Shown piece after piece: positions 6,042-25,973 of a stretch of 35,921 nt of DNA. Source of the stretch: Spirochaetaceae bacterium (GTDB lineage: Bacteria; Spirochaetota; Spirochaetia; DSM-27196; SKKC01); NCBI GenBank assembly GCA_007694005.1, contig RECN01000108.1:1-35921 (forward strand), written 5' to 3'. Under the pieces are notes generated by a model. That model made no database searches, was not told where the DNA came from, and worked only from the letters and a program-made list of their open reading frames with translations. Both the position numbers and the translations under genes were made by a program. Each line of letters starts with the position of its first letter. Position 1 is the stretch's first letter.

Positions 6042-6067
6042 GCGGGGTACCTCTCTGGTGCTTCGTA

Positions 6068-7186: not shown

Positions 7187-7235
7187 AGTGGCTCCTTTTC
7201 GCCTTGTATTCTTCGTGAGACCTGTGCGACCCGCG

Positions 7236-9651: not shown

Positions 9652-9652
9652 A

Positions 9653-10714: not shown

Positions 10715-10721
10715 ACACGTA

Positions 10722-11927
10722 TTACCCCTCGTGGTACGGATCGGCGGCATCACGGAGTCCGTCGCCCGCGAAGTTGAATGCGAGAACTGTTACAATGACC
10801 GGTATTACCGGCACGAGCAGCCAGGGATACAGGGAGATAGCCTGTATCGACTGCGCCTCTTGCAGCAGGACTCCCCAGCTCGTCGCAGGCGACCGCAATC
10901 CAAGCCCGAGAAAGCTCAACGAGGTCTCGGCCAGAATCATTCTCGGTACGGCGAGTGTGACCTCGACAAGCAGATAACTCATGAACCCGGGGATCATGTG
11001 CTTACGGATCACACGGGCGTCGCTTGCGCCGCTTACCTTCGCAGCCATGATGTAGTCTTCCTCACGCATGGAGATGAACTTTCCCCGAACAACGCGCGCA
11101 AGCCCCGTCCAGCCGATGAACGAAAGAATTATGGTGATGAGGAAGTAGGTCTGCACAATGGGCATGTTTGGAGGCAGCGCGGCGCTGAGCCCCATCCAGA
11201 GCGGGATCTCGGGAAACGAACGCAAGACCTCGATAATTCGCTGAATTATGGTATCGACCGTGCCACCAAAGTATCCCGAAATGGCTCCCATAATCGTGCC
11301 GACTACCAGGCTGATAATGACTCCTACCATGCCAATGGAGAGTGAAATTCGGGCACCGTGCACCATGCGCGAGAACAGATCCCGCCCCATACTGTCAGTC
11401 CCAAGCAGGAATATCCTCCCCGGGTCATCCACGCCATAAAACCGGATATCGGTCTCAAAGAGACCCCAGAAGCGATACGGTTCGCCACGGGTAAACAGAC
11501 GCACGCGGTAGGCGACCGACTCGTCGGCCACGTATCTCCTCCGCATCGTTTCAGGATCCCGTTCGAAAGTAAGCCCGTACACGAAGGGCAGCCTCAGACC
11601 GTCTTCATGGTGGATGATGCGAATGCGGGTCGGAGGAGCGTTCGTGAAACGTGAATCGTAACTGCGCAGCCCCTGAACGGAGAAGAAGTTCGCGAATATC
11701 GCGATGAAGTAGAATGCACCGAGTACAAGTATCGACACGCGAGCGATGCGGTGTCGCTTGAACTTGCGCCACATGAGCGTCCATTGACCGGCCAGATAGT
11801 AGTCGTCACCCAGGGTTTTCATGAGCGGATCAACCGCGATACCTTCGTCGAGAACAGCCTGTTCGATTTCGTCATGAGCCTGACTGTCGTTACCCGGTTG
11901 GCGCGAGAAAAAACGTCGCAGCGACAT
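10722..11927 (-). CDS. oppC: Opp-type ABC transporter permease (OppC/DppC family)
   Basis: This 401-residue membrane protein has an N-terminal cytoplasmic segment of about 60 residues, a first membrane helix (RVSILVLGAFYFIAIFANFF), a long external loop, and then the five-helix permease core. It carries the ATPase-contact EAA loop around AAKVSGASDARVIRKHMIPG. The loop between helices 1 and 2 (about 100 residues) is longer than in typical DppC and resembles OppC-like subunits of oligosaccharide importers. The start overlaps the oppB stop (TGATG), indicating translational coupling. Confidence 0.88.
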   Translation of the reverse strand: MSLRRFFSRQPGNDSQAHDEIEQAVLDEGIAVDPLMKTLGDDYYLAGQWTLMWRKFKRHRIARVSILVLGAFYFIAIFANFFSVQGLRSYDSRFTNAPPTRIRIIHHEDGLRLPFVYGLTFERDPETMRRRYVADESVAYRVRLFTRGEPYRFWGLFETDIRFYGVDDPGRIFLLGTDSMGRDLFSRMVHGARISLSIGMVGVIISLVVGTIMGAISGYFGGTVDTIIQRIIEVLRSFPEIPLWMGLSAALPPNMPIVQTYFLITIILSFIGWTGLARVVRGKFISMREEDYIMAAKVSGASDARVIRKHMIPGFMSYLLVEVTLAVPRMILAETSLSFLGLGLRSPATSWGVLLQEAQSIQAISLYPWLLVPVIPVIVTVLAFNFAGDGLRDAADPYHEG

Positions 11928-12925
11928 CAGCTTCCCTTCCTTTCGTATCGGATTCGAGGATCAAGCCAGGCAAGAAGGATGTCAGAAACTAGCGTCCCGA
12001 TAACCGTAAGGACTGACAATATGAGAAGAAAGCCCCCTGCAAGGTACATGTCCTGGTTACGCAACGCGCGGTAGGTTACCGGCCCCTGCGTCTGGAGGTT
12101 GAGGACGATTGCCGTAATCGTCGAACCGGAGAAAATACCGGTCAGGGCCCAGCCTATGGTACTCACAATCGGGTTCAGCGCGGCGCGTACCGGGTACTTG
12201 AAGGTCAAGCGTCGCTCCTCGACGCCTTTCGAACGGGCGGTCACGACGTACTGTTTGCGAATCTCATCGAGCATCTGCGAGCGCATGACACGAATCATTC
12301 CTGCCGTGCCAGCGGTCCCGATGACAAAAATCGGTATTGGCAGGTGCTTCATCATGTCCCAGACACGGGCAAGGCTCCACGGTGCGTCAATAAATTCCCG
12401 CGAAAACAGCCCCGAAAGGTTCACGCCGAAGTAATTAAACGCGACATATAGAAGCACAAGCGCGAGCAGAAAGTTCGGCGTTGCGACGCCCATGAAGCCG
12501 AAGAAGGTAGCCACATAATCGCCCAAGGAGTACTGGTGGGTCGCGCTGTAAATACCGATCGGTATCGCGACCAGATAGGTGAACAATAATGTCGTAAAAG
12601 ACAGAGCCAGCGTCGCCGGCAGTCGCGACGCAATTACAACGGTGACGCGGCTGCCCCACTCAAAAGAGAAACCGAAATCGCCCCGCAACACGATAGCCGT
12701 AATCCAGTTCCAGTACTGTATGTGGAAGGGTTGGCTAAGCCCCATTGCTTCGCGCATTCGGGCCATTTCCGCGGCGTCGACATCCTCTCCCATAGCACGC
12801 AGTGAAGCTGCGTACGTCGTTACGTAGTCACCCGGTGGCAACTGTATGATCCAGAAAACGATTATCGAGATCAGCAGTACAATCGGGATCATCATCAGGA
12901 TGCGTTTGACCATGAACTGTAGCAT
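11927..12925 (-). CDS. oppB: Opp-type ABC transporter permease (OppB/DppB family)
   Basis: This 332-residue membrane protein begins with the family's typical first helix (KRILMMIPIVLLISIIVFWIIQ) and then 'LPPGDYV'. Five further helices follow, with the EAA loop around VTARSKGVEERRLTFKYPVRAALNP. It forms the translocation pore with OppC. A GCGGAGGCACA ribosome site precedes the ATG. It is separated from the binding-protein gene by an intrinsic-terminator-like hairpin that would lower its expression relative to the binding protein. Confidence 0.9.
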   Translation of the reverse strand: MLQFMVKRILMMIPIVLLISIIVFWIIQLPPGDYVTTYAASLRAMGEDVDAAEMARMREAMGLSQPFHIQYWNWITAIVLRGDFGFSFEWGSRVTVVIASRLPATLALSFTTLLFTYLVAIPIGIYSATHQYSLGDYVATFFGFMGVATPNFLLALVLLYVAFNYFGVNLSGLFSREFIDAPWSLARVWDMMKHLPIPIFVIGTAGTAGMIRVMRSQMLDEIRKQYVVTARSKGVEERRLTFKYPVRAALNPIVSTIGWALTGIFSGSTITAIVLNLQTQGPVTYRALRNQDMYLAGGFLLILSVLTVIGTLVSDILLAWLDPRIRYERKGS

Positions 12926-13001: not shown

Positions 13002-14909
13002 CTACTGTCGGAAGAAGAACGCAATCATGTTGGCGTTCAGCGGCGACCGCAGCGGATCGGAATGAGTAAGCCCGTCGGGTGGGTGATTCCCGATTCGATT
13101 GCTTATAACCGACGGTACCGGCGTCTGGGTAAACACGCCGAGGTTCAGCAGATTCTCTTCCCAGAAGTCGACCATGCGTTCGGCGACCTGGTCGCGCTCG
13201 GGACCCGGAGGAAGGCTTCCGAAACGATTCCAGTTCTCAACAAGCTCGGCCACATCGGGTCCTGGCTCCACGCCCTGCGTACCACCGGAGGTCATGTAGT
13301 TGTAGTACTCACGACTCCACAAACGGTTCGGCTGTACAGGTACGTGTGAGGTCGGGCGAACCGGCCAGCTCCAGCCGTTCCAGGTCGAGTGACTCGCCTC
13401 GGTGATACCGTCGTCCCGCTCCTGTTCTCGCAGACCGCGATCAACAACGCGGGTAATCCAGCGCACGCCAATGTCGCGGACGTAGGCTTCGATGAGTTCG
13501 TACAGAGCGACATTCTGTGTGCTCTCCACCGTCATTATGACTTCAAGAACCTGGCCGTCCGGGCGCAGACGCCACTCTCGATTGGAGTCCCACTCGAGTC
13601 CCATGTCGTCGAGGTACGCGGCGGCTCGATCCGGGTCATACTCGGCGTAGGCCTGTGTCCAGCTCTCCCGGTAGTAGGCTCCGCCGGGGTTCGTCGAGGA
13701 TTGAGCGGGCGTTCCGAGGCCGTCGGTCACGATCTCGGTAATTTCCTCTCGATCGAGCGAAAGAGAGATAGCTCTGCGGAAGCGAACGTCCCGGAAAATC
13801 TCCCCGAGGACATCATCCTGCGGGTAGCGGTTGAACTCGATGTGTCCACCACCGGCCTCACCGATCCACTGGATGACTGCATAATCACCGCGCGTCCGGT
13901 TTTCCATAAGAGTAGCAAAGTCGTTCATGCCGACACGCCGATCCTGAAAGTCGATATCTCCAGCGATAATTGACAGGATAATGCTTTCCGAATCTTCAAC
14001 CAGCTGGTATTCAATTCCGTCAATGTACGGAAGCTGACGCCCGTCGGCGTCTACCTTGAAGTAGTAGGGATTGCGTTCGGTACGGAATATGCCGGACTCC
14101 GGATCGTTCACCGGAACCCATGGACGCATACTCGGGACCTCGGGACGTATCCAGAAGAACCGGCCAAAAGACACCAGAAACTGCTCGACGTTGGCGAAGC
14201 CGGCTTCCTGTGCAAGGGCGAGGGCAGCGCTTTCACCGATGAACTCCGGCAGTATCGTTCGTCCATAGTGCGCCGGGTAGAAAAACTCCCGCATCTGCAT
14301 CGTCATTTCGATCGGGAAGTTGTAGTACGACTCGGCAAAGACGATCTCGAAGGTATAGTCGTCGAGTATATTGACCTGAGCCAGCTCGCCCCCGCGAGTC
14401 CAGATCGGATTCAGAGGCACATAAATCTCTTCCAGGATCATGTGTTCCCAGTAGAAACGGACGTCTTCAGTCGTGAACGGCTCGCCGTCGCTCCAGCGCA
14501 AGCCTTCGCGCAGATGAAACACGAAGCGTGTCCCGTCGTCGAGTATTTCAAGTTCGTGCGCAATGTTGGGAACAACTGTTGTTCCGTCCTGGGAGATGTG
14601 AACAAGATACTCCGAAGAGTTTTTCTCCATGCCCCAGCGGTCTGCCGAGGGTCCCATCCACGCCTTGCGCAGCGGTCCTCCGCCGTAGTTGCCGACGCCT
14701 TCCCACATGTCGTCTACAACCATAGGATTGACCGGAAGCCGATCCTCGAGCGGATCGAGTTCCCCCGCTTCTACCATTGCTGCGAGCATCGGCGCCTCGC
14801 GTAAATCAGCATCTGTGGTGTCGACGGCAGCCTGTTCCGTGCGGCCACCGGCCCACAGAAGCGTTGCCGAAGCAAACAGCATCAGAATAAACATGCGTGT
14901 ATTTCGCAT
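13002..14909 (-). CDS. oppA: ABC transporter substrate-binding protein (family 5, OppA/DppA-like)
   Basis: This 635-residue secreted protein has an N-terminal signal peptide (MRNTRMFILMLFASATLLWAG) without a lipobox Cys. Family-5 solute-binding motifs follow: FVFHLREGLRWSDGEPFTTEDV, then 'DDYTFEIVFAES' and 'FRRAISLSLDREEI'. It is about 100 residues longer than E. coli OppA, as is common for oligosaccharide-binding members in Thermotoga and spirochetes. It delivers substrate to OppBCDF. A GGAGGAG site precedes the ATG. Co-location with inositol and uronide enzymes and absence of peptidases suggest that the ligand is a carbohydrate or cyclitol conjugate rather than a peptide; this is inferred. 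Confidence 0.9.
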   Translation of the reverse strand: MRNTRMFILMLFASATLLWAGGRTEQAAVDTTDADLREAPMLAAMVEAGELDPLEDRLPVNPMVVDDMWEGVGNYGGGPLRKAWMGPSADRWGMEKNSSEYLVHISQDGTTVVPNIAHELEILDDGTRFVFHLREGLRWSDGEPFTTEDVRFYWEHMILEEIYVPLNPIWTRGGELAQVNILDDYTFEIVFAESYYNFPIEMTMQMREFFYPAHYGRTILPEFIGESAALALAQEAGFANVEQFLVSFGRFFWIRPEVPSMRPWVPVNDPESGIFRTERNPYYFKVDADGRQLPYIDGIEYQLVEDSESIILSIIAGDIDFQDRRVGMNDFATLMENRTRGDYAVIQWIGEAGGGHIEFNRYPQDDVLGEIFRDVRFRRAISLSLDREEITEIVTDGLGTPAQSSTNPGGAYYRESWTQAYAEYDPDRAAAYLDDMGLEWDSNREWRLRPDGQVLEVIMTVESTQNVALYELIEAYVRDIGVRWITRVVDRGLREQERDDGITEASHSTWNGWSWPVRPTSHVPVQPNRLWSREYYNYMTSGGTQGVEPGPDVAELVENWNRFGSLPPGPERDQVAERMVDFWEENLLNLGVFTQTPVPSVISNRIGNHPPDGLTHSDPLRSPLNANMIAFFFRQ

Positions 14910-15287: not shown

Positions 15288-16175
15288 GTGAAGAATGCGG
15301 AAGAGCGAGAAATAATTGCCTCGTACGGCGGTGAGGATCAGGATTTTGGATTCTATCACAAGCGGTCCGATCCACCGCGCGAGATCCCGATGCATCTGCA
15401 CTCATGCTACGAGATGTACTATCTGGTCTCAGGCCACCTGCTCTATCTTGTCGAGGACAGGGCCTATCGCATCGAGCCTGGGGATATCGTGGTCATTAAC
15501 TGCAAGGAAAGCCACGCCCCCATGCTCGTATCCAAGCGTGACCCTATCGAGCGATACGTTGTTCACTTTCGCCCGCAGTTCATCGGCGCGTTCACGTCGG
15601 CCGAGTACAATCTCCTTGGCTTCCTCCGGAAGAAACGGGTCGGGCTGAACAGCATCTGCAGGGCGGCCGACCACGATACGAGCGAGTTGCACGACTACCT
15701 CAAACGAATCAAGGCGGCTGTGGTCCGCATGGGACCGGAAACGAAGGTAATGGTGCAGTCGCTGTTCGTGCAGTTTCTCGTGAGTCTCAACCGCCTCTTC
15801 GACCCCGTCGAAGTATCAAACGATCCGGTAATCCGCAACGGACGCTACGACGAAAAAATCGTCTCGATTCTGTCCTATATTCACGATCACTTCAGCGAAC
15901 ACATCACGCTCGACGTGCTTGCCGAGGAGTTTGCCGTCAGCAAGTATCACCTCTGCCGGCTCTTCAAGGCGAATACCGGGCTGACGGTGGGCGAGTACAT
16001 CGACCATCAGCGAATTGCCCGCGTCGTTGGACTTCTGCGCCAGGGTGTTCCGGCTCTTGACGCTTCGTACGCGGCAGGTTTTACCCAGTATTCCACGTGC
16101 TACAAGGTCTTTCGCAAGGTTACCGGCGTCTCCCCGAGCCGGATTCTCAGCCTCGACCACGTACAAACCCGGTAG
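15288..16175 (+). CDS. AraC-family transcriptional regulator with cupin sensor domain
   Basis: This 295-residue protein has an N-terminal cupin-like ligand domain (MHLHSCYEMYYLVSGHLLYLVEDRAYRIEPGD) and a C-terminal double helix-turn-helix. The latter includes HITLDVLAEEFAVSKYHLCRLFKANTG and the AraC signature region FTQYSTCYKVFRKVTGVSPSRI. Such proteins usually activate a sugar operon when the sugar binds. It is divergent from oppA and leads the GDPD operon, so it probably controls the importer and its own operon. The start is taken as GTG at 15288; no Shine-Dalgarno is visible, and the cupin would tolerate a slightly later start. The effector is unknown. Confidence 0.88.
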   Translation: MKNAEEREIIASYGGEDQDFGFYHKRSDPPREIPMHLHSCYEMYYLVSGHLLYLVEDRAYRIEPGDIVVINCKESHAPMLVSKRDPIERYVVHFRPQFIGAFTSAEYNLLGFLRKKRVGLNSICRAADHDTSELHDYLKRIKAAVVRMGPETKVMVQSLFVQFLVSLNRLFDPVEVSNDPVIRNGRYDEKIVSILSYIHDHFSEHITLDVLAEEFAVSKYHLCRLFKANTGLTVGEYIDHQRIARVVGLLRQGVPALDASYAAGFTQYSTCYKVFRKVTGVSPSRILSLDHVQTR

Positions 16176-16196: not shown

Positions 16197-16928
16197 ATGT
16201 ATACGATCAACGGACATACAATAGAACTCGTCGCACACCGTGGAGCCAATGGTCTCGCGCCTGAGAACACACGGGCCGCCGTTGAGCAGTGCCTGAAGTT
16301 CGGTGTCGATGTCATCGAACTCGACGTACAGCGAAGCCTGGACGGCACGCTGTACAACTTTCACGACGGATCCCTGAATCGCACGACGAACGGGAGCGGC
16401 AGTCTGTTTCTCCGACACTCCAGATACATCGATGCACTCGATGCGGGGTCGTGGTTCTCCCACGATTTTACCGGCGAACGTGTCCCGAAAATCCAGGACC
16501 TCATTCATGAGTTTCGGGGAAGACTGCGCTTTTATCTCGACATCAAGTCCGGATCGCTGCGAAAAATCGCGTCAATGATCCGGGCATCCAGGATTGCAGA
16601 GGAGACATTCGTGTGGTTCGCAAGCCCGAAACGGGAGAAACGCTTCCGCAGGATTGCCCCGGACGTTGCACTGAAGGTCAACGTGCGGACACCGGAAGAC
16701 ATTACACGGACAGCACTTCCGCGTGGCGCTCGGATCGTTGAAATTTCCACCGACAATCTTTCCTCCGAGATTGTCGCCGAGGCGCACAGCAACAACCTGA
16801 AGGTCATGGTAAACGACCTGCACGGAGATCACGCCGACTACCGGAATATGGTCGACCTGAAGGTAGATATGATCAACCTGGACCGCCCGGAGCGTTTCGC
16901 CGATTTTGTAACAAAAGCAGACGGGTAG
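16197..16928 (+). CDS. Glycerophosphodiester phosphodiesterase (GDPD family), cytoplasmic
   Basis: This 243-residue protein has a TIM-barrel GDPD fold with the catalytic pattern AHRGANGLAPENT (His14, Arg15), VDVIELDVQ (Glu/Asp ligands) and FHDGSLNRTTNG (second catalytic His). It lacks a signal peptide. GDPDs hydrolyse glycerophosphodiesters to glycerol-3-phosphate plus the alcohol; glycerophosphoinositol is one known substrate class and would give inositol. An AAGGA sequence lies 7 nt before the ATG. It starts 21 bp after the AraC stop, so it is probably co-transcribed. A link to the inositol genes across the divergent promoter is inferred from position only. Confidence 0.88.
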   Translation: MYTINGHTIELVAHRGANGLAPENTRAAVEQCLKFGVDVIELDVQRSLDGTLYNFHDGSLNRTTNGSGSLFLRHSRYIDALDAGSWFSHDFTGERVPKIQDLIHEFRGRLRFYLDIKSGSLRKIASMIRASRIAEETFVWFASPKREKRFRRIAPDVALKVNVRTPEDITRTALPRGARIVEISTDNLSSEIVAEAHSNNLKVMVNDLHGDHADYRNMVDLKVDMINLDRPERFADFVTKADG

Positions 16929-16933
16929 AGACC

Positions 16934-17671
16934 ATGTCGTTTCCAGCCATGCTTGTCGGGTTCAGCCTGGTTTCCATCGGCTTTACCATCGGGTTTTTCG
17001 TGCTCAGTCGTCTGATCGGGCAGGCGGTCGGCGCCTCAACGCTTCGTACGCAGCGCACGATACAGCAGATCTACGAGTCAGGTCGTGCTCCGGAACGGTG
17101 GATCGCACGCGCCGATACCGATGAGGACCGCAGAAAGGCCTTACAGAAAGAACTTCGTCGCATTGAGTCGGAAGTCCGTGCATCCCCCGCATTCGCCGAA
17201 GAAGGGGTTCGAGAAGAGATACTCGAAGCGGTGTCTGCGTTCAAGCGGCGTATTTCCACTGATCCGGTTTCCGAACTCATAGGTCCGGATCCGGCGCTGC
17301 GATCGACTGTTCTTGTCGTATCGCCTGACGTCGAAGCATTCACCAGGCGAGACCACGGCGCCCGGAGCGCGATCAGAACCGTCGAGCGGGACGGATACCG
17401 GGTCTTCCGGCTCTCTGCGTACGAAAGGAATCCGTTTCAGTCACTCGTGAGCGACCTCAACGGCGAACACCACAGACCGGTAGACACGCTGCTCGTTGCG
17501 CGCGCAGGCGAATCGCTGATCCCGCAGGCAAATCAGGCAGGGTTTGCGACAGTCTGTTTTTCCAGTTCCGGCGACACCGCATCGTCGCTCGAGGACGCGG
17601 ACAGGATCGCAACGGATATGGCGCAGGTGGTCGCTTACGTCCGAGAAATGGAATCAATAGAACTCGATTAG
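16934..17671 (+). CDS. Membrane-anchored protein of unknown function
   Basis: This 245-residue protein is not recognised. One N-terminal membrane helix (about residues 5-27, MLVGFSLVSIGFTIGFFVLS) is followed by a charged helical stretch (about 45-105) that could form a coiled coil. A C-terminal half of about 130 residues with alternating strands and helices follows (STVLVVSPDVEAF, DTLLVARAGESLIPQANQAGFATVCF). The latter looks like a Rossmann-like or HAD-like alpha/beta fold, but the catalytic Asp motifs of HAD enzymes are absent. It starts 5 bp after the GDPD stop and ends 25 bp before the alpha/alpha-toroid enzyme, so it belongs to the same operon. No function is proposed. Confidence 0.7.
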   Translation: MSFPAMLVGFSLVSIGFTIGFFVLSRLIGQAVGASTLRTQRTIQQIYESGRAPERWIARADTDEDRRKALQKELRRIESEVRASPAFAEEGVREEILEAVSAFKRRISTDPVSELIGPDPALRSTVLVVSPDVEAFTRRDHGARSAIRTVERDGYRVFRLSAYERNPFQSLVSDLNGEHHRPVDTLLVARAGESLIPQANQAGFATVCFSSSGDTASSLEDADRIATDMAQVVAYVREMESIELD

Positions 17672-17696: not shown

Positions 17697-19523
17697 ATGC
17701 ACACACAAATCAGTAACCCTATACCTCAGATCGTACGAACGCATCTCCCGACCGTTTCGGACTTACGCACAGCACTTTCGAAGACGCCCCGGTATACCGG
17801 GGCGCGCCATGTCATGGATGTGTGCAACTCGCTGATCGTCGCTTTGTCGCAGACGGAGCAGAAGGAACAGCAGGAAGAAATAGCGGAACTCATTGCCGAA
17901 GCGAGCACCGTTCTGTTGCGGTTGCAGAATGCCGACGGGTCCATCTCGTCTGTCAACCTGCAGTCACCACCAGATACGGCGTTCGTCGTTCAAAGCGCTT
18001 CGTACGGTCTGCGCGCGATCGCGACCTATATCGAAACATCCGCCACGTTGAGTACCGCCCACAGGAATCTTCGCCACTTTCTTCATCGCACCCGGCATAT
18101 CATGCGCACCGGTGGCATCCACACCCCGAACCACAGGTGGGTCGTGTGCGCTGCCCTCGCTGCGCTATACCATGAGTTCCAGGATGCGACCCTGCTCGAC
18201 CGGATAGAGGAGTGGATCGGTGAAGGCATAGACATAGACGAAGACGGTCAGTTCTGCGAGCGGAGCTCCGCGATTTATTCGGCTGTCTCGAGTGAGTGCC
18301 TGCTGGAGACCGCGTTCCTCACCGGGAACGCGCACCTTCTGGACCCGGTACGGCGCAACCTCGAATCAACGCTCTACCTGGTCGACTCGAGCGGTCGCAT
18401 CGAAACCTCAGCGTCCCGGCGACAGGATCAGTTTCGCACAGACATGACGATCGCACCGTATTATTTCTCCTACACAGCCATGTCCCGTATAGAGTCCAAT
18501 CCGATGTGGCGTGAGGCAGCCGGCTTTATCGAGTCGACGTGTACCCGACTTCTTTCATACAGCGCAATCAGGTTCCTTTCGTTTCAGGACATTATAGAAA
18601 CGCTCAGAGACGGCGAGCTTGAGTCATCTCAGGATAACGAAGGCAGTACTCTCCCGTCTCGCTTCGACCGGCTTTTTTTGGCCTCCGGTCTGTTTCGCAG
18701 GCGAAGGGAAAACCGCGTGACAACGGTATTCTTTGGGGCCGACGATCAACCGGATACCGCGCTCGCTTCCACGGCATCGGGGCGATCATCAAGTCCCAAC
18801 ATTCTTTCATTCAGCAATGGGACCTCGGTCTGCGGCTGGGTCCGGGTTGCTCCGTATTTTTTCGGCGTCGGATACTTCAGACCACGCCTCGTATCGAGGA
18901 GCGCCAACCGCATCGAGCTTGTGGACGAACGCTCCGTGGGATACGTTCAACCCCTCCCTCGTGAACGTCGTCACGCCGACGGGATCTACCCGCTGACGAC
19001 TCTGGACTCACGATACTGGAGCGCCGCGTCCCTCGACGCTCGACGCGTGAGCGAGACCCAGTATGTTCGCTGTTCGATTACCGTCGAGTTGAACGAAAGT
19101 GGATGCACGATCAGCGTCGACACAGATTGCTCCGGAGAAACGCCCGTCTGGTTCGAGATAGCGGTTCCTCCTGGCACTGCGGCCGGGCGCTCACACGCCG
19201 ACTCTCAAGGCCTGGTTCTGAGTGGGGTAACCCACGATACCGAAGTAGACGACAACGTTTTTATCGAGTTCAGCCCCCAGAACGCTGCCGAGTGGACCCC
19301 TGAGCCGAGACACCTCGGGGACGTGGATTCCGCGCGCATCATTCGAGAAGTTCATGAACACGGGTCACGTTCGTTTCCGACCTACACGAGTTTTGACGGT
19401 ACGGACGCCACCGGCCAGAGCGGATTAAAGCTGATAGCTGCCCCATTCGCGGCTCCAGGGAATGCGATCCTGACCATCAGCGCCGCGGCTCCTGCGGGCG
19501 GGCGGCACCGCTTGTCCGTCTGA
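17697..19523 (+). CDS. Cytoplasmic alpha/alpha-toroid carbohydrate-active enzyme candidate, paralogue A
   Basis: This 608-residue protein has no signal peptide. The N-terminal 350 residues are helical with conserved blocks: SPPDTAF (90-96), HTPNHRW (142-148), DEDGQFCERS (181-190) and TSASRRQD (237-244). The C-terminal part is rich in beta strands. Helical toroid plus beta-sandwich is the layout of several polysaccharide-lyase and heparinase-like families, which act by beta-elimination on uronides or hydrolyse oligosaccharides. I cannot assign a numbered family. The gene at 24231-25973 shares all four blocks with near-identical spacing. A GGAGGC site supports the ATG at 17697 over an upstream GTG. 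Its 3' end overlaps the LacI gene on the other strand by 47 bp. Confidence 0.75.
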   Translation: MHTQISNPIPQIVRTHLPTVSDLRTALSKTPRYTGARHVMDVCNSLIVALSQTEQKEQQEEIAELIAEASTVLLRLQNADGSISSVNLQSPPDTAFVVQSASYGLRAIATYIETSATLSTAHRNLRHFLHRTRHIMRTGGIHTPNHRWVVCAALAALYHEFQDATLLDRIEEWIGEGIDIDEDGQFCERSSAIYSAVSSECLLETAFLTGNAHLLDPVRRNLESTLYLVDSSGRIETSASRRQDQFRTDMTIAPYYFSYTAMSRIESNPMWREAAGFIESTCTRLLSYSAIRFLSFQDIIETLRDGELESSQDNEGSTLPSRFDRLFLASGLFRRRRENRVTTVFFGADDQPDTALASTASGRSSSPNILSFSNGTSVCGWVRVAPYFFGVGYFRPRLVSRSANRIELVDERSVGYVQPLPRERRHADGIYPLTTLDSRYWSAASLDARRVSETQYVRCSITVELNESGCTISVDTDCSGETPVWFEIAVPPGTAAGRSHADSQGLVLSGVTHDTEVDDNVFIEFSPQNAAEWTPEPRHLGDVDSARIIREVHEHGSRSFPTYTSFDGTDATGQSGLKLIAAPFAAPGNAILTISAAAPAGGRHRLSV

Positions 19524-20511
19524 TAACGAGTTCCGGTTCGAGAAGAATCTGATTTGAATCTCCTTCTTCGGGAAGGCTGGACTCGATCTGACGCCTGAGC
19601 AACTCAACGCTCAACCGTCCGAGCTCTCGTTTGGGCTGACGGATCGTCGAAAGGCCAACCGCTTCAAAGCCAGCCGTCGGTATGTCATCGAAGCCGATGA
19701 CTGCAAGATCCTCGGGTACGCGTAAGCCGCAGGCCTGCGCTCCCTGCATGACGCTGAAGGCGGTCACGTCGTTCTGGGCGAAGAGCGCTCGCGGGCAGCA
19801 GCCTTCACTGATCATTCGCATGATGATATCCGAACCACTGCTCTCACCGGCACGCGGCAGACCGACGTATCTCTCGTCGTATTGAATGCCAGCGTCTTCG
19901 ATCGCACGCCGGTATCCGTGGAGTCGCGGTATAGAGGTGATCCCTCCCGCCTCCGCACCTATGAAGCCAACCGTGTCGTAGCCCTGATCGATCAGATGAC
20001 GAGTCGCCATGTACGAACCCCTATCCTCGTCTATCGCGACGAAGGGTCTCTCGGTCCTCAGCGGGGCGTGATTAACGTATACAACCGGTGTGTCACCGAC
20101 GGCATCCCGAACGAGTTCCTCGGGTTCGTCGGCAATAAGCGAAACGATAATGCCGTCGACGCGGCGCTGCGCGAGCAGACGCAGATAACGCTCTTCTTTT
20201 TCCTTGTCCCAGTTTGTGTTGCACAGAAAAACGCTCAGCCCGAGCTCATCGGCGGCGAGCTCGACGCCGGCAGCGACTTCGGGAAAAAAGGGGTTGGTAA
20301 CGTCGGGAAGTACCAGCCCGATCGTCTTTGTACGCTGAGTCACCAGCCCCTGCGCTATTGCGTTCGGTGTATAGCCGAACTCTTTTGCAATTACAAAAAT
20401 ACGCTCCCGCGTCGCTGCTCCGACACCTTCCTTGCGGTTGAGCGCTCGTGATACCGTTGAGTAGGAAACGTTTGCTGCCCGGGCTATGTCTTTAATCGTT
20501 TTACTCGCCAT
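19477..20511 (-). CDS. LacI/GalR-family transcriptional repressor
   Basis: This 344-residue protein has a complete N-terminal helix-turn-helix (TIKDIARAANVSYSTVSRAL) with hinge helix NAIAQGLVTQRT, and a periplasmic-binding-protein-like sensor domain (IGLVLPDVTNPFFPEVAAGVE, FAQNDVTAFSVMQ, VIGFDDIPTAG). It represses sugar genes until an inducer binds. The start MASKTIKD at 20511 is chosen because the HTH begins there; the upstream in-frame extension of 24 codons is not typical for the family. GGGGGAGG lies directly before this ATG, unusually close. The nearest LacI-type operators are at 8495 and 15062. The inducer is unknown; inositol or a pathway intermediate is plausible. Confidence 0.92.
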   Translation of the reverse strand: MASKTIKDIARAANVSYSTVSRALNRKEGVGAATRERIFVIAKEFGYTPNAIAQGLVTQRTKTIGLVLPDVTNPFFPEVAAGVELAADELGLSVFLCNTNWDKEKEERYLRLLAQRRVDGIIVSLIADEPEELVRDAVGDTPVVYVNHAPLRTERPFVAIDEDRGSYMATRHLIDQGYDTVGFIGAEAGGITSIPRLHGYRRAIEDAGIQYDERYVGLPRAGESSGSDIIMRMISEGCCPRALFAQNDVTAFSVMQGAQACGLRVPEDLAVIGFDDIPTAGFEAVGLSTIRQPKRELGRLSVELLRRQIESSLPEEGDSNQILLEPELVIRRTSGAARPQEPRR

Positions 20512-20604
20512 GCCTCCCCCGGGCGTATCCCGTCCAGACTTATCACAAATACGTGCACGCCACAAGGGAAACTGCCGATTCATCAGCAGACACTTCTATA
20601 GCTG

Positions 20605-21246
20605 TTACCGCATTCGGTGACCGGAACCTCGCATGTGCGGAGTCGACTCATCGCTGATTCGCGCATAAAGATCGTGCATCAGATGAATCTCGTCACGCTG
20701 GGAGGTGATGATGTTTGAGGCGAGCTCTCGCGTTTCGGCGGATACTCCATCAACACTCCGCAACAGTTCATGTGAACTCATTATTGCGTGCATGTGATGC
20801 GGGATCATGTCTTCGAGGAACACGCGTACTGATTCCTCCGCAGTAAGTCCGTCGTACGGACGCATCATTGGTTCGTACTCGTGGCCTGGTTCGAAATCCG
20901 GGTAGCGGTCGGCAAGCCAGCCTTCCATGAGCTCAATTTCGGCGGTCTGCTCGGCGATAATGCTTTCGAGCAGTTCGGCTATCGCCTCATCACCTGTGAT
21001 CTCGAGGAGCTCCCGTGATCGCTCAACCGCTTCAGCGTGGTGTGGAATCATCATTGCGAGGTAATCCGCTTCAGACTCAACCCGCATATCCCCGCCGTGC
21101 ATCGCGCCGCGGTGCATCCCACCGCCGTGCATCGCGCCACGATTCATCCCTCCGTGGTGCATCCCGCCTTGTCCAAAAACCAGGCCGGCTGCGAGAATCA
21201 GGACGAGAACCAACCCGCCGAATACCCATGTTTTTTTGTGTGCCAT
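20605..21246 (-). CDS. DUF305 family protein with Met/His-rich leader
   Basis: This 213-residue exported or membrane-anchored protein has a signal peptide or N-terminal anchor (residues 7-25) followed by a low-complexity GMHHGG/GAMHGG stretch (residues 28-54). Two DUF305 four-helix-type halves follow, each with the signature MIPHH (AMMIPHHAEAVE and EDMIPHHMHAIM). DUF305 proteins are common next to copper-resistance genes, and the Met and His residues suggest binding of Cu or Ag in the envelope. It lies 64 bp downstream of the sensor kinase on the same strand with an AAGGAG site, so it is probably the output gene of that two-component system. Metal specificity is inferred. Confidence 0.85.
   Translation of the reverse strand: MAHKKTWVFGGLVLVLILAAGLVFGQGGMHHGGMNRGAMHGGGMHRGAMHGGDMRVESEADYLAMMIPHHAEAVERSRELLEITGDEAIAELLESIIAEQTAEIELMEGWLADRYPDFEPGHEYEPMMRPYDGLTAEESVRVFLEDMIPHHMHAIMSSHELLRSVDGVSAETRELASNIITSQRDEIHLMHDLYARISDESTPHMRGSGHRMR
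21092..21166 (-). repeat. Five tandem 15-bp repeats coding for the Met/His-rich segment
   Basis: Five consecutive 15-bp units on the plus strand follow the pattern CCGCCGTGCATCGCG: 21092, 21107, 21122, 21137 and 21152. Units 1 and 3 are identical; unit 4 is the most divergent. Each encodes a five-residue G-x-M-H/N-x block of the DUF305 protein, so the number of metal-binding blocks could vary by repeat slippage without a frameshift. Confidence 0.8.
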
Positions 21247-21310
21247 ATTCGCACTCCTTCTACTGCATCGTTTCTATGCAACAAAGTAGCGCGTATTTGT
21301 AAAGCCAGTA

Positions 21311-22432
21311 TTAAACCGATGGAATTGAAAACTGCATGATCGTGCCTTCCCGCGAAGTGCTCTGCACCCAGATCTCCCCACCCTGAGCCTCGACATAGGC
21401 CTTTGAAACGGTGAGTCCTATCCCTGTACCGATATCATCCGCTCGGCGGGCTCGGGATGTGTCGGCTCGGTAGAAGCGCTCGAAGATATAGGGTACAGCG
21501 TCCTCCGGGATACCCGCTCCGTTGTCGGCGACCGAAACAACGGCCCGGTCAGAGCTATCCCTGTCAGCCGAAAGCGTTACCGTGCCACCTGCCGGCGTAT
21601 GACGAAGCGCGTTGGTAAGAAGGTTCTCGATTACCTGAAGGGTGCGGTCAGGGTCGGCGAGCACCTCGCCACCGTCTGCCGGCCGGCCACGAGAACGTAC
21701 AGGTTCGACCGTGAGCGAAATCTGATTTTCCTCGAAGCGGGCGATAAGATCTTTGTGGGCCTGCTCGAGAAGCGTAGCGAGACCTACGGCGCGTGGCTCC
21801 ACCGGCTCAACTCCGGCTTCAACACGCGATAGCAGGGACAGGTCGTCGACGAGCGAACGCAGGCGCGCAAGTTGTCGCGTGCAGGAGGCGATAACTTCCG
21901 AATCGGGCCTGAAATGTCCATCGGCTATCCCCTCGATATAGCCCTGCAAGCCTGTCAGAGGCGTTCGAAACTCGTGGGCCACATTGCCGATCAGACTGCT
22001 GCGCCGTGCTTCTGTAGCGTGAAGTTCTCCGGCCATACGGTTAAACGCTGCCGCCAGTTCGCCTACTTCCCCCGGTGCCGTGTCGTCGAGTCTTTCGGCA
22101 TAGTATCCCCCGGCGATCCGTTCGCTTACACGGTGCATGGCTCGAAGTGGCGCGGTTATGCGGCGTGAAAGCCATATGCTCAAAGCGGCCGCCACCAGAA
22201 GGCCAGCGACGAGTCCAAGAAGCATGGAGCGCTGCGTGACTGTCTCGTACTCGACCGCCATGTCCCACATCATTGGCCCTCGGTGGTGCTGCCTGTGGAG
22301 CCGCATCATTAAAGGGGTTACTGCTTCACTTGCAATGAATGCCACCACAACGGCAATGATGAGTACGGCAACAAAGGAGAGAAACAGGCGCGTAGAAATG
22401 CGCATCCCGAAGCGCGACGTCCGATCATTCAT
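21311..22432 (-). CDS. Two-component sensor histidine kinase with His/Met-rich external loop
   Basis: This 373-residue kinase has membrane helix 1 at about residues 14-36, a short external loop (37-69), helix 2 (70-90), a HAMP domain, an H-box NVAHEFRTPLTG with His153, and a HATPase domain (ENLLTNALRHTP, VADNGAGIPED, GTGIGLTVSK). The loop contains MMRLHRQHHRGPMMWDM, whose His and Met residues suggest direct sensing of a soft metal ion such as Cu(I) or Ag(I). The start at 22432 gives an ATGAATGA overlap with the response-regulator stop, indicating translational coupling. A much longer upstream frame overlaps the regulator gene and is rejected. The loop is much shorter than in CusS, so the metal-sensing idea is tentative. 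Confidence 0.88.
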   Translation of the reverse strand: MNDRTSRFGMRISTRLFLSFVAVLIIAVVVAFIASEAVTPLMMRLHRQHHRGPMMWDMAVEYETVTQRSMLLGLVAGLLVAAALSIWLSRRITAPLRAMHRVSERIAGGYYAERLDDTAPGEVGELAAAFNRMAGELHATEARRSSLIGNVAHEFRTPLTGLQGYIEGIADGHFRPDSEVIASCTRQLARLRSLVDDLSLLSRVEAGVEPVEPRAVGLATLLEQAHKDLIARFEENQISLTVEPVRSRGRPADGGEVLADPDRTLQVIENLLTNALRHTPAGGTVTLSADRDSSDRAVVSVADNGAGIPEDAVPYIFERFYRADTSRARRADDIGTGIGLTVSKAYVEAQGGEIWVQSTSREGTIMQFSIPSV

Positions 22433-23135
22433 CGGCCTCTCCCGTATCGATTTCATCTGCGGCGAAGCGGTACCCTGCACCGCGCACCGTCTGTATGAAT
22501 GCCTGCCCCCTTGTATGGGGTTCGATCTTGGCGCGAAGGTTCGAGACATGAACGTCCACCACCCGATCTGCCCCTCCGTAATCTCCACCCCATACCCTCT
22601 CGAGCAACTCGTCACGACTGAACACCCGATGGGGATGCCGCGCGAGAAGGAGAAGAAGATCAAACTCCCTGGTTGTCAGGTCGATGACCCGCTCTGCAGT
22701 CCGTGCATTTCGCGTTGCAGGGTCGATACGCAATCCGTCAAAACGCAGGACTCGCTCTCCTGGCGGTTCGTCGCTTGTGCGGGCGAGAACCGCTTTCGCT
22801 CGAGCGACGAGTTCCTTCGGACTGAACGGTTTAACCACATAGTCGTCAACCCCAACGGAAAAGCCCGTGAGTCGGTCCTGTTCTTCGGCTTTCGCGGTGA
22901 GCATAATGACCGGGGTCGCGCACCGTACGCGCAGTCGCTTCATGAATGCCGGCCCGTCGAGACCGGGAAGCATCCAGTCGAGGACAATGAGCGAGAACGA
23001 GGCGTTTAACGCTGTGGAGAGGCCGAACGAGCCGTCCTCAGCGGTCGCCACCGAAAAACCGGCAGCTTCGAAGTACGTGCGGACAACGGTAACAATGTCG
23101 GGGTCATCTTCGACGATAAGTACGGACTGTTTCAT
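22425..23135 (-). CDS. OmpR-family response regulator
   Basis: This 236-residue regulator has a receiver domain (acidic pocket IVEDDPD, phospho-acceptor Asp53 in VLDWMLPG, Thr80, Lys102 in VVKPFSP) and a C-terminal winged helix (LTTREFDLLLLLARHPHRVFSRDELLERVWG, DVHVSNLRAKIE). It pairs with the kinase downstream and probably activates the kinase-DUF305 operon. The start MKQSVLIVEDD at 23135 is preferred because a TATACT box at 23150-23145 ends 9 nt before it. The in-frame ATG at 23144 directly touches that box and would lie upstream of the transcript start. Confidence 0.9.
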   Translation of the reverse strand: MKQSVLIVEDDPDIVTVVRTYFEAAGFSVATAEDGSFGLSTALNASFSLIVLDWMLPGLDGPAFMKRLRVRCATPVIMLTAKAEEQDRLTGFSVGVDDYVVKPFSPKELVARAKAVLARTSDEPPGERVLRFDGLRIDPATRNARTAERVIDLTTREFDLLLLLARHPHRVFSRDELLERVWGGDYGGADRVVDVHVSNLRAKIEPHTRGQAFIQTVRGAGYRFAADEIDTGEADE

Positions 23136-23205
23136 TGACATCATAGTATAGACCGGAAATATTTATAGAATGTAAAGAACGGGAAACCAGTGCGGGCAGG
23201 GATGA

Positions 23206-24051
23206 ATGAACTCAAGTGATGTAATAATCGTAACCGGCGCGAGCTCGGGAATAGGCAAGGCGACCGCAGAGGCCCTTGCGAAAACCGGAGCCCGCATCGT
23301 GCTCGCCTGCCGCTCGCCGTCCCGCGGCGAGGCAGCGCTCGCAGAGATCACTCGATCAAGCCGCTGTGAGCGTGTCGAGCTCATGCAGCTCGACCTCGCC
23401 TCCTTCGCTTCGGTCCGGGCATTCGCTCGTTGCTTCGCCGAGCGCTACGACCGCTTGAGCTGCCTCATCAACAACGCCGGTGTGATCACGCGTGAGCGTC
23501 AGTTCAGCGAGGACGGGTACGAGTTGCAGTTTGCGGTGAACCATCTCGGCCATTTTCTGCTGACCACAGAACTGCTGCCGCTGCTCACCGAGAGCGCGCC
23601 GGCGAGAGTCGTTACCGTCTCGTCGGGCGCCCACAAAATCGGACGAATCGATTTTGATGACATCAATCTCGACCGGCGGTACACCGTCTTCGGAGCCTAC
23701 GCACGGTCCAAGCTTGCCAACGTGCTGTTTACCAGAGAACTCGCCCGTCGGATAAGGGGTAGCGGCGTGACAGCCAACAGCCTGCATCCAGGCGGTGTCG
23801 CCACGAACTTCAGCATCGACCGCGAAACCGGTGCAGGAAGTCGAATTATGCGCACCGTATCTCTGTTCATGTCCTCGCCCGAAAAGGGTGCCGAAACCCC
23901 CGTCTATCTCGCTACGTCACCCGATGTGGCCGGGATCAGCGGCGAGTACTTTGTCAAGAAACGCCGCCGCAAGCCCTCCCAGCGGGCGCTCGACGACACG
24001 CTTGCCCGGCGGCTCTGGGAGGAAAGCGAGCGGATCACCGGCGGCCGGTAG
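23206..24051 (+). CDS. Short-chain dehydrogenase/reductase (retinol-dehydrogenase-like)
   Basis: This 281-residue SDR protein has the NAD(P) motif TGASSGIG near the N-terminus and NNAG in the middle. The catalytic Ser is in VVTVSSGAHK and the catalytic Tyr/Lys pair is in AYARSK. The Arg-rich cofactor loop (LACRSPSRGEAA) favours NADPH. The overall pattern (GYELQFAVNHLGHFLLT, ANSLHPGGVATNF) resembles the retinol-dehydrogenase/WW-oxidoreductase type branch of classical SDRs. The substrate is unknown. It is divergent from the two-component operon by 70 bp and is followed by the second alpha/alpha-toroid gene after 179 bp. Confidence 0.9.
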   Translation: MNSSDVIIVTGASSGIGKATAEALAKTGARIVLACRSPSRGEAALAEITRSSRCERVELMQLDLASFASVRAFARCFAERYDRLSCLINNAGVITRERQFSEDGYELQFAVNHLGHFLLTTELLPLLTESAPARVVTVSSGAHKIGRIDFDDINLDRRYTVFGAYARSKLANVLFTRELARRIRGSGVTANSLHPGGVATNFSIDRETGAGSRIMRTVSLFMSSPEKGAETPVYLATSPDVAGISGEYFVKKRRRKPSQRALDDTLARRLWEESERITGGR

Positions 24052-24149
24052 ACCGAAGGGGCAGGCCGCGCGCTGATGAACGCGCGACACCGGTGCGTGC
24101 GCCGCACCCGCTGCACCTGTCCCCGCCCGCCCGGCCACGATACCGGCGC

Positions 24150-24181
24150 CACGATCGGCATACATGTCGTCACGATCGGCA
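24150..24181 (+). promoter_or_regulatory. Direct repeat CACGATCGGCA, two copies 21 bp apart, upstream of toroid paralogue B
   Basis: CACGATCGGCA occurs at 24150-24160 and again at 24171-24181, exactly 21 bp (two helical turns) apart. Such spacing is typical for half-sites of AraC-family activators. Its reverse complement shares TGCCGAT with the 13-bp motif near the AraC gene. Relative to the expected transcript start it covers about -80 to -48. Confidence 0.45.
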
Positions 24182-24185
24182 ATCT

Positions 24186-24230
24186 TTTCGCGTCGCGAAA
24201 CGTCTGCGCCTGGTGGTAGAATCATCAACC
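24186..24230 (+). promoter_or_regulatory. Palindrome and extended -10 promoter of toroid paralogue B
   Basis: TTTCGCG-T-CGCGAAA (24186-24200) is a perfect inverted repeat covering the -35 position. It is followed by an extended -10, TGGTAGAAT (TAGAAT at 24217-24222). The ATG at 24231 comes 8 nt later with no Shine-Dalgarno. This looks like a regulated leaderless promoter. Confidence 0.5.
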
Positions 24231-25973
24231 ATGAGTCTTCTCCCCTACACACTCGAACACGCGGCCCGTTACGTCCTCGAATCGTACCCGAGGCAGATCC
24301 TCGATACAGCGGATCGCGACTACGGTGGAATCGTCTCCCCCGACTACGGCTGTGCTGCTGCGGATTCCGGCCGGCACGGTACCTTTATCGCCTTCGCCTG
24401 CTACGCGTACATGCATACAGAGTCTCCGCTGCACGGTGATACGGAACTCCGGCGACGCATTGAGGCGGCCATCGGATTTCTCTCTGGCAGACAGCGGGAA
24501 AGCGGTCTCATCGATCTCATAAGCGTGAACATCGAGTCCCCACCGGATACTGCGTTCACCGTACAGCTGTTCGCTCCCCTTGTCGCCCGTGCGCGAACAG
24601 CCGGTGAGCCGGCCGCGTTCATAGCCGAAGAACTGGGAGCGTATATCCGTAGCGCCGCTGAGGGTATTGTCGGGCGCGGGTTTCACACGCCGAACCATCG
24701 ATGGGTTATCTGTTCGGCGCTCTCGCAGGCCATGTCGCTCTACCCGGACTTCGACGCGAGTGAATACATAGACGCGATTCTTGCGGAGACTATTGACGTC
24801 AACGAAGACGGGCAATACTCGGAGCGAAGCACCGGTGTCTACGACGGCGTGGTCAACCGGTCGCTGCGGTATATGGCCGACAAGCTCAACATGCCGGAAC
24901 TACTCGATATCGTTCGCCGGAATCTCGATCTGACGATGCACCTTCTGCATCCGGACGGATCGGTACTGACCTCCGTCTCTATACGCCAGGATCGCGGTGC
25001 GGCAGCCTATCCGGCGAGCGCCGACTCATTTCTCGATATGGCTCTCAGAGACTCGAACGATGACTGGCTGCAGTTCGCGGTCGATACCTTCAGAAAACCG
25101 GGGACAATCACTCCTGCGACCGTCGAAGCTGTCCTGAGCCATCCCGGGCAGATCAGCCGGATTCCGTCTCCCGACGCGCCGTCCTCCGCGTCGCCGATTC
25201 CCGATGGTTTCAGACGATTCTTCCCGGCGGCGGGAATCTGGCGCGTAAAAGACGGCGACCTTTCCGCGGCGGCGTTCGCAGGGACAACGTCGGTCTTTCT
25301 GCTGCGATACGGCAGTGTGGAGCTGCGCGCGTTGAAAGTGGCCCGGTGCCGCGCTCCCGGTGGCCGATTCGAAGCCGACACGACTGAAGAGATCGAACGT
25401 GGTGTTCGGCTGACACAAAAGGCCGACCGGAGAATCGCAAGCGGCTACGACCTGCCGCTCGGCCGCCCGGTCGGATTCGACGAGTTCGAAGAGCTGCGTT
25501 CGACCGACTACGACCACATTCGAACGAAGCAGGAACAGCGATCACTGAAGCAGCTTGAACTCCTGCACGCTTCCCGCGACCGCTGGACCCTACCCCCGAC
25601 GGACGTGCAAATCGATATCCGGGAAGCGGAAAGTGGTTTCGACATCGAAGTGCTCACTATAGGCGGGCACGACAGAAATCCGGCGCAGATCGAGCTGTGC
25701 TTTACAGGTCCAGGGATCTGGGAGGCGGGAGGCACCGCGTGCGAGGCGATTCCCGGGGCGAGCGCGTTCCTGCTGTCCGGGTTCGGAACGTTCCACAACC
25801 ACCGCCACGCAATCACGGTCGGCCCCGGAGCGAGTGCCCATCGGATGTGGCATATGCGGGGGACGGAGCCCGAGCCTGACGCATTTCGTGTACTCATAGC
25901 GCTTGAAACGCCGGTAGAGCACCCGCTGCAGATCCGCTACGGACCGTGGAGTCCGGTCAGCGACGCGTCATGA
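24231..25973 (+). CDS. Cytoplasmic alpha/alpha-toroid carbohydrate-active enzyme candidate, paralogue B
   Basis: This 580-residue protein without signal peptide is a paralogue of the protein at 17697-19523. The four conserved blocks are SPPDTAF (103-109), HTPNHRW (152-158), NEDGQYSERS (191-200) and TSVSIRQD (247-254). The helical N-terminal half is followed by a beta-rich C-terminal half. The invariant His, Asn, Arg, Glu and Asp residues in these blocks are the best catalytic candidates. The architecture recalls toroid/beta-sandwich lyases, but I do not recognise a defined family. The start at 24231 is 8 nt after an extended -10; longer upstream frames add a proline/arginine-rich leader absent from the paralogue. 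It overlaps the HAD gene by 6 bp tail to tail. Confidence 0.78.
   Translation: MSLLPYTLEHAARYVLESYPRQILDTADRDYGGIVSPDYGCAAADSGRHGTFIAFACYAYMHTESPLHGDTELRRRIEAAIGFLSGRQRESGLIDLISVNIESPPDTAFTVQLFAPLVARARTAGEPAAFIAEELGAYIRSAAEGIVGRGFHTPNHRWVICSALSQAMSLYPDFDASEYIDAILAETIDVNEDGQYSERSTGVYDGVVNRSLRYMADKLNMPELLDIVRRNLDLTMHLLHPDGSVLTSVSIRQDRGAAAYPASADSFLDMALRDSNDDWLQFAVDTFRKPGTITPATVEAVLSHPGQISRIPSPDAPSSASPIPDGFRRFFPAAGIWRVKDGDLSAAAFAGTTSVFLLRYGSVELRALKVARCRAPGGRFEADTTEEIERGVRLTQKADRRIASGYDLPLGRPVGFDEFEELRSTDYDHIRTKQEQRSLKQLELLHASRDRWTLPPTDVQIDIREAESGFDIEVLTIGGHDRNPAQIELCFTGPGIWEAGGTACEAIPGASAFLLSGFGTFHNHRHAITVGPGASAHRMWHMRGTEPEPDAFRVLIALETPVEHPLQIRYGPWSPVSDAS

Follow-up and report, generated by a model that had tools for sequence, protein, structure and literature searches.

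Two paralogous proteins at a spirochaete inositol-catabolism locus probably belong to a distinct branch of heparinase-type toroid lyases

Contig RECN01000108.1 of a Spirochaetaceae bacterium (assembly GCA_007694005.1; 35,921 nucleotides, referred to here as the window) encodes two related proteins, P0001 and P0002, that belong to no family in Pfam or NCBIfam. Both are predicted to adopt the two-domain fold of polysaccharide lyases (PL), and their most conserved motif blocks align with the active site of the heparinase II/III superfamily, pointing to cytoplasmic beta-eliminating enzymes that would act on uronic-acid glycosides. The two open reading frames (ORFs) and their predicted catalytic blocks, whose coordinates derive from residue numbers counted from the ORF starts at 17697 and 24231, are the following.

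17697..19523, plus strand: P0001, predicted lyase-fold enzyme, ORF of 608 amino acids plus stop; predicted catalytic residues N145, H146 and Y194.
18120..18140, plus strand: HTPNHRW block of P0001, residues 142-148, with the predicted neutralising Asn and catalytic His from the family profile alignment.
18240..18278, plus strand: EDGQFCERSSAIY block of P0001, residues 182-194, with the predicted catalytic Tyr194.
24231..25973, plus strand: P0002, predicted lyase-fold enzyme, 580 amino acids plus stop; predicted catalytic residues N155, H156 and Y204; further conserved residues Y406, R449 and H537.
24684..24704, plus strand: HTPNHRW block of P0002, residues 152-158, aligned by the family profile to the heparinase Asn-His.
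24804..24842, plus strand: EDGQYSERSTGVY block of P0002, residues 192-204, with the predicted catalytic Tyr204; aligned by HHalign to the heparinase-family DGGHIERSPMYH.

Both ORFs are open throughout, and each protein contains the four blocks described in the initial annotation, SPPDTAF (starting at residue 90 in P0001 and 103 in P0002), HTPNHRW (142 and 152), EDGQxxERS (182 and 192) and TSxSxRQD (237 and 247). The spacings of 52/39/56 and 49/39/56 residues are exact when the third block is counted as [DN]EDGQ from residues 181 and 191. The proteins are indeed paralogues (BLASTP identity of 32% over 266 amino acids, E 4e-30), and inspection of their sequences reveals no signal-peptide-like N-terminus in either, in keeping with the proposed cytoplasmic location. 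Because their full-length identity is only ~24%, they branch separately in the family tree and their relatives have different neighbours, it is plausible that the two act on different substrates. The genome encodes a third paralogue on a different contig (G000:C64:566-2215), where it adjoins glycoside hydrolase (GH) family 92 and phosphotriesterase-family genes (L171, 521-5648).

The fold was examined using AlphaFold2 models. For P0002, the model built from the family alignment is of high confidence (mean pLDDT 93, pTM 0.91) and consists of helices over residues 1-310 followed by a mostly beta domain; for P0001, modelled on a 24-sequence alignment, the mean pLDDT is 75 and rises to ~90 in the toroid part. 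Foldseek against the PDB matches most of the P0002 chain to PL33 (best, E 5.5e-9), PL17, PL8, PL12 and the human dermatan-sulfate epimerase DS-epi1 (6hzn, E 8.5e-7), and the top match of P0001 is the PL15 exo-lyase Atu3025 (E 1.9e-9). Among two-domain matches in VIA alignments, PL35 is best for P0002 (Z 18.1, 444 residues), followed by PL17 and DS-epi1 (Z 16.9, 467 residues), and PL35 is also matched by P0001 (Z 17.7 over 453). Single-domain toroids reach higher VIA scores with P0002 (cellobiose 2-epimerase, Z 20.8; unsaturated glucuronyl hydrolase, 18.7), covering only about residues 1-310. The models and both structural searches thus bear out the toroid of the initial annotation but not a toroid alone, since a C-terminal beta-sandwich follows it, making these two-domain lyase-fold enzymes. 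On these predictions, the full-length architecture is an (alpha/alpha) toroid plus C-terminal beta-sandwich, as in PL8, PL12, PL15, PL17, PL33, PL35 and dermatan-sulfate epimerase.

Relatives of P0002 are widespread. One scan of public genomes with this protein as query returned 455 stretches encoding relatives, from Latescibacterota, Gemmatimonadota, Chloroflexota, Armatimonadota, Clostridia and other groups. Since 40 of the 64 Latescibacterota genomes searched carry the family, usually in single copy, its function in that phylum may be a core one, wider than the use of one polysaccharide. P0002 itself groups in the tree with Thermomicrobiales and Latescibacterota proteins. Around the window's own lineage the family is patchier: a search of the phylum with P0001 was positive in one of 296 sampled genomes, namely the window's own, and a family-profile search in seven of 41 near relatives of that genome. 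P0001 and its two orthologues, from two genomes of the same order (44% and 47% identity), form a branch of their own. An alignment of 69 members from several phyla contains 21 invariant positions, most of them within the four blocks, including (P0002 numbering) H152, T153, P154, N155, H156, R157, W158, E186, D189, E198, S200, Y204, T247, S250, R252, D254 and R449. In a set of 84 sequences, 14 of the 21 positions checked never vary (N155, H156, Y204 and R449 included), and T247 and Y406 are each conserved in 83; T247 is the sole exception among those of the residues just listed that were looked at again in this set. Invariance across such distant relatives argues that the blocks are not a product of chance.

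The family has no sequence model that we could find. Neither P0001 nor P0002 matches anything in Pfam or NCBIfam above noise, and the Pfam models Hepar_II_III_N and Hepar_II_III_C detect neither protein and none of the 69 members at E 0.1. No sequence relative was found in the PDB with the single proteins, nor at E 10 with the family profile (hmmsearch, all PDB sequences), and the open-access literature contains no earlier description of such a family. The family is therefore unassigned, as initially annotated, and new to Pfam, NCBIfam and the PDB sequences; CAZy may already hold a number for it. We also considered an origin in PL8, hinted at by weak Lyase_8_N hits (three of the 69 members, best E 0.0055), and ruled it out by HHalign (Prob 0.2).

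A profile-profile comparison with heparinase II/III proteins, pulled from genomes via PF07940 and PF16889, locates the probable active site. HHalign relates the family to this set over the whole profile with Prob 81 (P 1.2e-5) and over the toroid part with Prob 90 (P 1.5e-6), and 12 unrelated control alignments made in the same way score at most 1.4. In the resulting alignment, TPNHRW falls on the heparinase Asn-His, and DGQYSERSTGVY (DGxxxERSxxxY) falls on DGGHIERSPMYH, so that the catalytic appearance of the blocks noted initially has a counterpart in a known active site. N155 and Y204 lie 49 residues apart. From published residue numbers, we calculate 53-57 residues between Asn (or Asn/His) and Tyr in PL12, PL15, PL17, PL21, PL33, PL35 and PL39 (PMC12088678, PMC11848413), and N155-H156/Y204 conforms to the superfamily trait of an Asn(-His) and a Tyr about 50-57 residues apart within the toroid. 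When PL15 and PL21 act on L-uronates, the base is the His of the Asn-His site (PMC11848413), and by analogy H156 could do the same; the second Tyr of PL33 and PL17 plausibly corresponds to Y406. Taken together, fold and profiles indicate that the family is probably a distinct branch of the heparinase-type toroid lyases, of probably similar chemistry, that no known sequence family claims. The window's genome additionally carries an ordinary heparinase II/III-type gene (G000:C104:405-1238, L089; PF16889, E 2.9e-49).

The genes surrounding P0001 in the window are as follows.

2862..4100, plus strand: oligogalacturonate-lyase family protein (PL22; Pfam PF14583, E 2.6e-33), beyond the inositol block.
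4133..5170, minus strand: IolG, inositol 2-dehydrogenase (NCBIfam TIGR04380, 418 bits, cut-off 355).
5223..6119, minus strand: IolO-like sugar-acid epimerase (NCBIfam NF041099, 135 bits, below the cut-off of 300; best PDB match TM_0416, E 6.7e-25).
6068..7303, minus strand: IolN, 3-dehydro-scyllo-inosose hydrolase of creatininase fold (NCBIfam NF041098, 311 bits, cut-off 245).
7236..8444, minus strand: IolM, scyllo-inosose 3-dehydrogenase (NCBIfam NF041097, 490 bits, cut-off 450).
8566..12925, minus strand: OppB/C/D/F-type ATP-binding cassette (ABC) importer genes, read as ORFs and assigned by motif only.
13002..14909, minus strand: solute-binding protein, family 5 (SBP5; Pfam SBP_bac_5, E 2.9e-54).
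15288..16175, plus strand: AraC-family regulator (Pfam HTH_18 and AraC_binding), opening the apparent P0001 operon.
16197..16928, plus strand: glycerophosphodiester phosphodiesterase (GDPD; Pfam PF03009).
16934..17671, plus strand: 245-amino-acid protein, hydrophobic at its N-terminus and unmatched in Pfam at E 0.001; lies between the GDPD gene and P0001.

The regulator, GDPD, the 245-amino-acid protein and P0001 form one apparent operon with gaps of 21, 5 and 25 bp, divergent from the minus-strand run of SBP5, the Opp-type importer genes, IolM, IolN, the IolO-like gene and IolG. We take the four inositol genes to be the inositol route of Thermotoga maritima. For that route, Rodionova 2013 is the source, as cited in PMC3750489. 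The initial annotation called this a sugar-acid locus. Because IolG, IolM and IolN exceed their NCBIfam cut-offs and an IolO-like gene accompanies them, the locus is chiefly an inositol-catabolism block instead, accompanied by the PL22-family gene. Relatives of the Opp-type importer genes are found by BLAST near family members at L024, L038, L047 and L056, and PL22 relatives at L054 and L056.

Inositol genes recur beside the family in other lineages. At an Anaerolineae locus (L070), the family member is followed by IolO-like, IolN (61% identical to the window's), IolM (41%) and IolG genes. In Butyrivibrio and related genomes (L073, L187, L188, L189), a GH88/GH105 gene, an ROK gene, the family member, IolC, IolD, IolB, IolE and IolG are consecutive; at L073, IolC, IolD, IolE and IolG exceed the NCBIfam cut-offs and IolB falls below. 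In the Lachnospirales genomes G934, G830 and G1005 (L196-L198), the order is Iol genes, ROK, family member, and in L196 and L198, the two loci inspected at the level of single genes, SBP5 and OppBCDF-type genes, the importer type of the window, lie on the other side of the family member. Overall, seven of the 13 family copies found in Lachnospirales lie within ~9 kb of Iol genes, compared with a random expectation of ~0.1 for a genome of ~4 Mb; these seven come from two lineages and do not count as independent events. The Iol-linked members sit on separate branches of the tree, and two different inositol pathways are represented among their loci. Other neighbours accompany the P0001 orthologues: one adjoins a GDPD gene 60% identical to the window copy (L169), and the other adjoins a GH28 gene, with a phosphatidylinositol-specific phospholipase C (PI-PLC) gene and a PL22 fragment nearby (L168). 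This fragment (L168:2884-3404; 67% to the window's copy) shows its PL22 similarity in several pieces and is perhaps a decayed gene.

GH88 and GH105 enzymes are unsaturated-uronide hydrolases and partners of lyases. Their genes stand beside family members in three lineages, the Butyrivibrio cluster, L191 (in the same gene run) and L054 (29 bp upstream of the family member, with a YteR-like best PDB match). Across many phyla, 113 next-door genes give mild signals only (Gfo/Idh 7, sulfatase 5), and the 25 families listed for 78 distant genes include no sulfatase; since these tallies are so mild, we do not argue for a general role on sulfated glycans. Two further conserved proteins were seen near the family. 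One, of ~550 amino acids, occurs in Clostridia (L073:5168-6853, L190:869-2509, L192:10784-12430, L076:10729-12447), has no Pfam match in its L190 copy and may act as a further enzyme in the same route. The other, of ~650-700 amino acids, lies directly beside the family member in two genomes of the window's order (L172:8-2098, L170:6734-8680) and has no Pfam match in its L172 copy.

We interpret P0001 and P0002 as cytoplasmic beta-eliminating enzymes of heparinase/alginate-lyase architecture for imported uronic-acid glycosides, with a probability of roughly two in three. The chemistry is the firmer part: the predicted lyase fold, the lyase Asn/His/Tyr set and the adjoining hydrolases for lyase products make it quite likely that a uronide undergoes beta-elimination, by cleavage or by dehydration. 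A role on imported oligosaccharides, as first suggested, is likely in view of the ABC importers and the GH88/GH105 partners. As a plausible mechanism, imported oligosaccharides would be bound such that N155 neutralises the carboxylate of the uronic acid, and H156 and Y204, as base and acid, would abstract the proton from C5 and expel the leaving group at O4. The product would be a 4,5-unsaturated uronide, to be hydrolysed next by a GH88/GH105 enzyme, and at the window locus the likeliest aglycone would be inositol, consumed by the neighbouring IolG-M-N-O products. The recurrence of inositol genes, GDPD and PI-PLC suggests a uronide carrying inositol or inositol phosphate in several lineages, and some substrates are probably uronyl-inositol glycans such as plant sphingolipid head groups; for at least one of the two window paralogues, an inositol-linked substrate is possible, at somewhat less than even odds.

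Several observations weigh against this interpretation. The same fold also houses an epimerase, DS-epi1. The beta-domain His of the Tyr-His dyad of PL12, PL17, PL33, PL35 and PL39 has no conserved counterpart by sequence, the nearly invariant H537 (in the 84-sequence set) lies much later in the chain than this His would be expected, and the beta domains alone give Prob 1.6 in the profile comparison with heparinase II/III. With no such His located by sequence, these proteins may use an acid/base set unlike that of canonical toroid lyases. Moreover, the inositol link is confined to a minority of the loci, since family members from Latescibacterota and Chloroflexota mostly have other neighbours, and the Butyrivibrio GH88/GH105 protein exceeds the cut-off of an NCBIfam model named beta-galactosidase BglB.

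Glycosyl inositol phosphorylceramides (GIPCs) are characteristic sphingolipids of plants. The core of their head group is Hex- or HexNAc-GlcA-inositol (PMC9113257), and plants under fungal attack build up free inositol (phosphate) glycans, Man-GlcA-Ins for example (PMC11496612). A narrower and tentative proposal, which we regard as rather unlikely as it stands, is that some family members, P0001 among them, are lyases or dehydratases of inositol glycans acting at the inositol-joined glucuronic acid of these head groups, with Man-GlcA-Ins and GlcN-GlcA-Ins as candidate substrates. GH88/GH105 enzymes would then free the inositol, and the adjacent Iol genes would burn it. The GH92 gene beside the third paralogue would be a weak fit to the mannose on the GIPC core. 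If true, this would constitute a bacterial recycling route for GIPC head groups; in the open-access literature, we found no described bacterial catabolic route for uronyl-inositol glycans or GIPCs, and none for inositol with GH105 and iolG.

Pectic substrates are a serious rival, owing to the PL22, GH28 and YteR-like GH88/GH105 genes. Under this alternative, the enzymes would be pectin-type uronide lyases acting on fragments of oligogalacturonide or rhamnogalacturonan, and the presence of the inositol genes would be coincidental or due to shared regulation by plant matter. PL22 genes in the window, L054 and L056, the GH28 gene and PL22 fragment at the P0001 orthologue of L168, and the YteR-like structures closest to the L054 hydrolase all fit. 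However, inositol genes of two pathways turn up repeatedly beside members from separate family branches, and few loci contain PL22, GH28 or YteR-type genes, so that we consider a pectic role unlikely. An oligosaccharide dehydratase, which would remove water at O4 of an unsubstituted uronic acid in terminal position (e.g., GlcA-inositol) and feed GH88/GH105, seems to us clearly improbable as the specific activity, despite a precedent in ulvan degradation, where a uronide dehydratase feeds GH105 (PMC8511951). A terminal uronyl-inositol would need this step alone before GH88/GH105, and the missing canonical beta-domain His fits an altered acid/base arrangement; yet the mutated Tyr306 of the ulvan dehydratase P29_PDnc is dispensable (PMC8511951), whereas Tyr204 is invariant in the family. 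It is very unlikely that the pocket instead removes and re-adds the C5 proton as a uronosyl C5-epimerase, because, although DS-epi1 matches over the full length, family members adjoin GH88/GH105 genes, which need unsaturated products, and DS-epi1 works on polymers whereas these proteins lack signal peptides and reside in bacterial catabolic loci. Slimmest of all is the chance that the enzymes belong to another toroid family of glycoside hydrolases or sugar epimerases (GH88, GH127, AGE): on its own, the toroid resembles unsaturated glucuronyl hydrolases and cellobiose 2-epimerases (Z 18-21), but these matches stop near residue 310, the full-length two-domain matches are lyases and DS-epi1, and in the profile alignment the invariant blocks coincide with catalytic residues of lyases.

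If the beta-eliminating role is correct, toroid lyases gain a distinct branch with an apparently changed acid/base set, and the inositol link predicts uronyl-inositol glycans as substrates. The large size of the family, the lack of a Pfam or NCBIfam model and its presence in most Latescibacterota genomes searched also amount to an annotation gap in many uncultured genomes.

Among known systems, the Thermotoga IolG-IolM-IolN-IolO pathway, for which we know of no lyase-fold gene, is represented in the window by the neighbours of the family, not by the family itself. The heparinase II/III superfamily (PF16889, PF07940; PL12, PL15, PL17, PL21) shares the two-domain fold and a similar Asn-Tyr spacing; Asn-His and DGxxxERSxxxY align in profiles, and the start of the beta domain, FPxxG-R, is recognisable. 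Unlike that superfamily, members of the present family score below its Pfam models, have no beta-domain catalytic His that could be found by sequence, possess their own invariant GxHTPNHRW and TSxSxRQD, lack a signal peptide and occur in an inositol context in some lineages. The PL33 hyaluronan/gellan lyases (BT4410, PDB 8r71) provide the best full-length Foldseek match and a catalytic Asn/Tyr pair, with Y406 as the plausible counterpart of their second active-site Tyr, Y470; they differ in having 9% identity, no sequence-level match and an H444 whose counterpart was not found by sequence. The PL35 glycosaminoglycan lyases (PDB 8khv, 8khw), which have the top VIA score among full-length matches, are secreted, contain Mn in the beta domain and share 10% identity. 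The ulvan oligosaccharide dehydratase P29_PDnc delivers unsaturated uronides to GH105 in a catabolic route, as proposed for the present family, and other residues are reported as essential (PMC8511951). The closest functional analogy is the PL15 exo-lyase Atu3025 (PDB 3a0o, 3afl), which acts on alginate and shares only ~12% identity but is, according to its entry title, an exo-acting oligouronide lyase.

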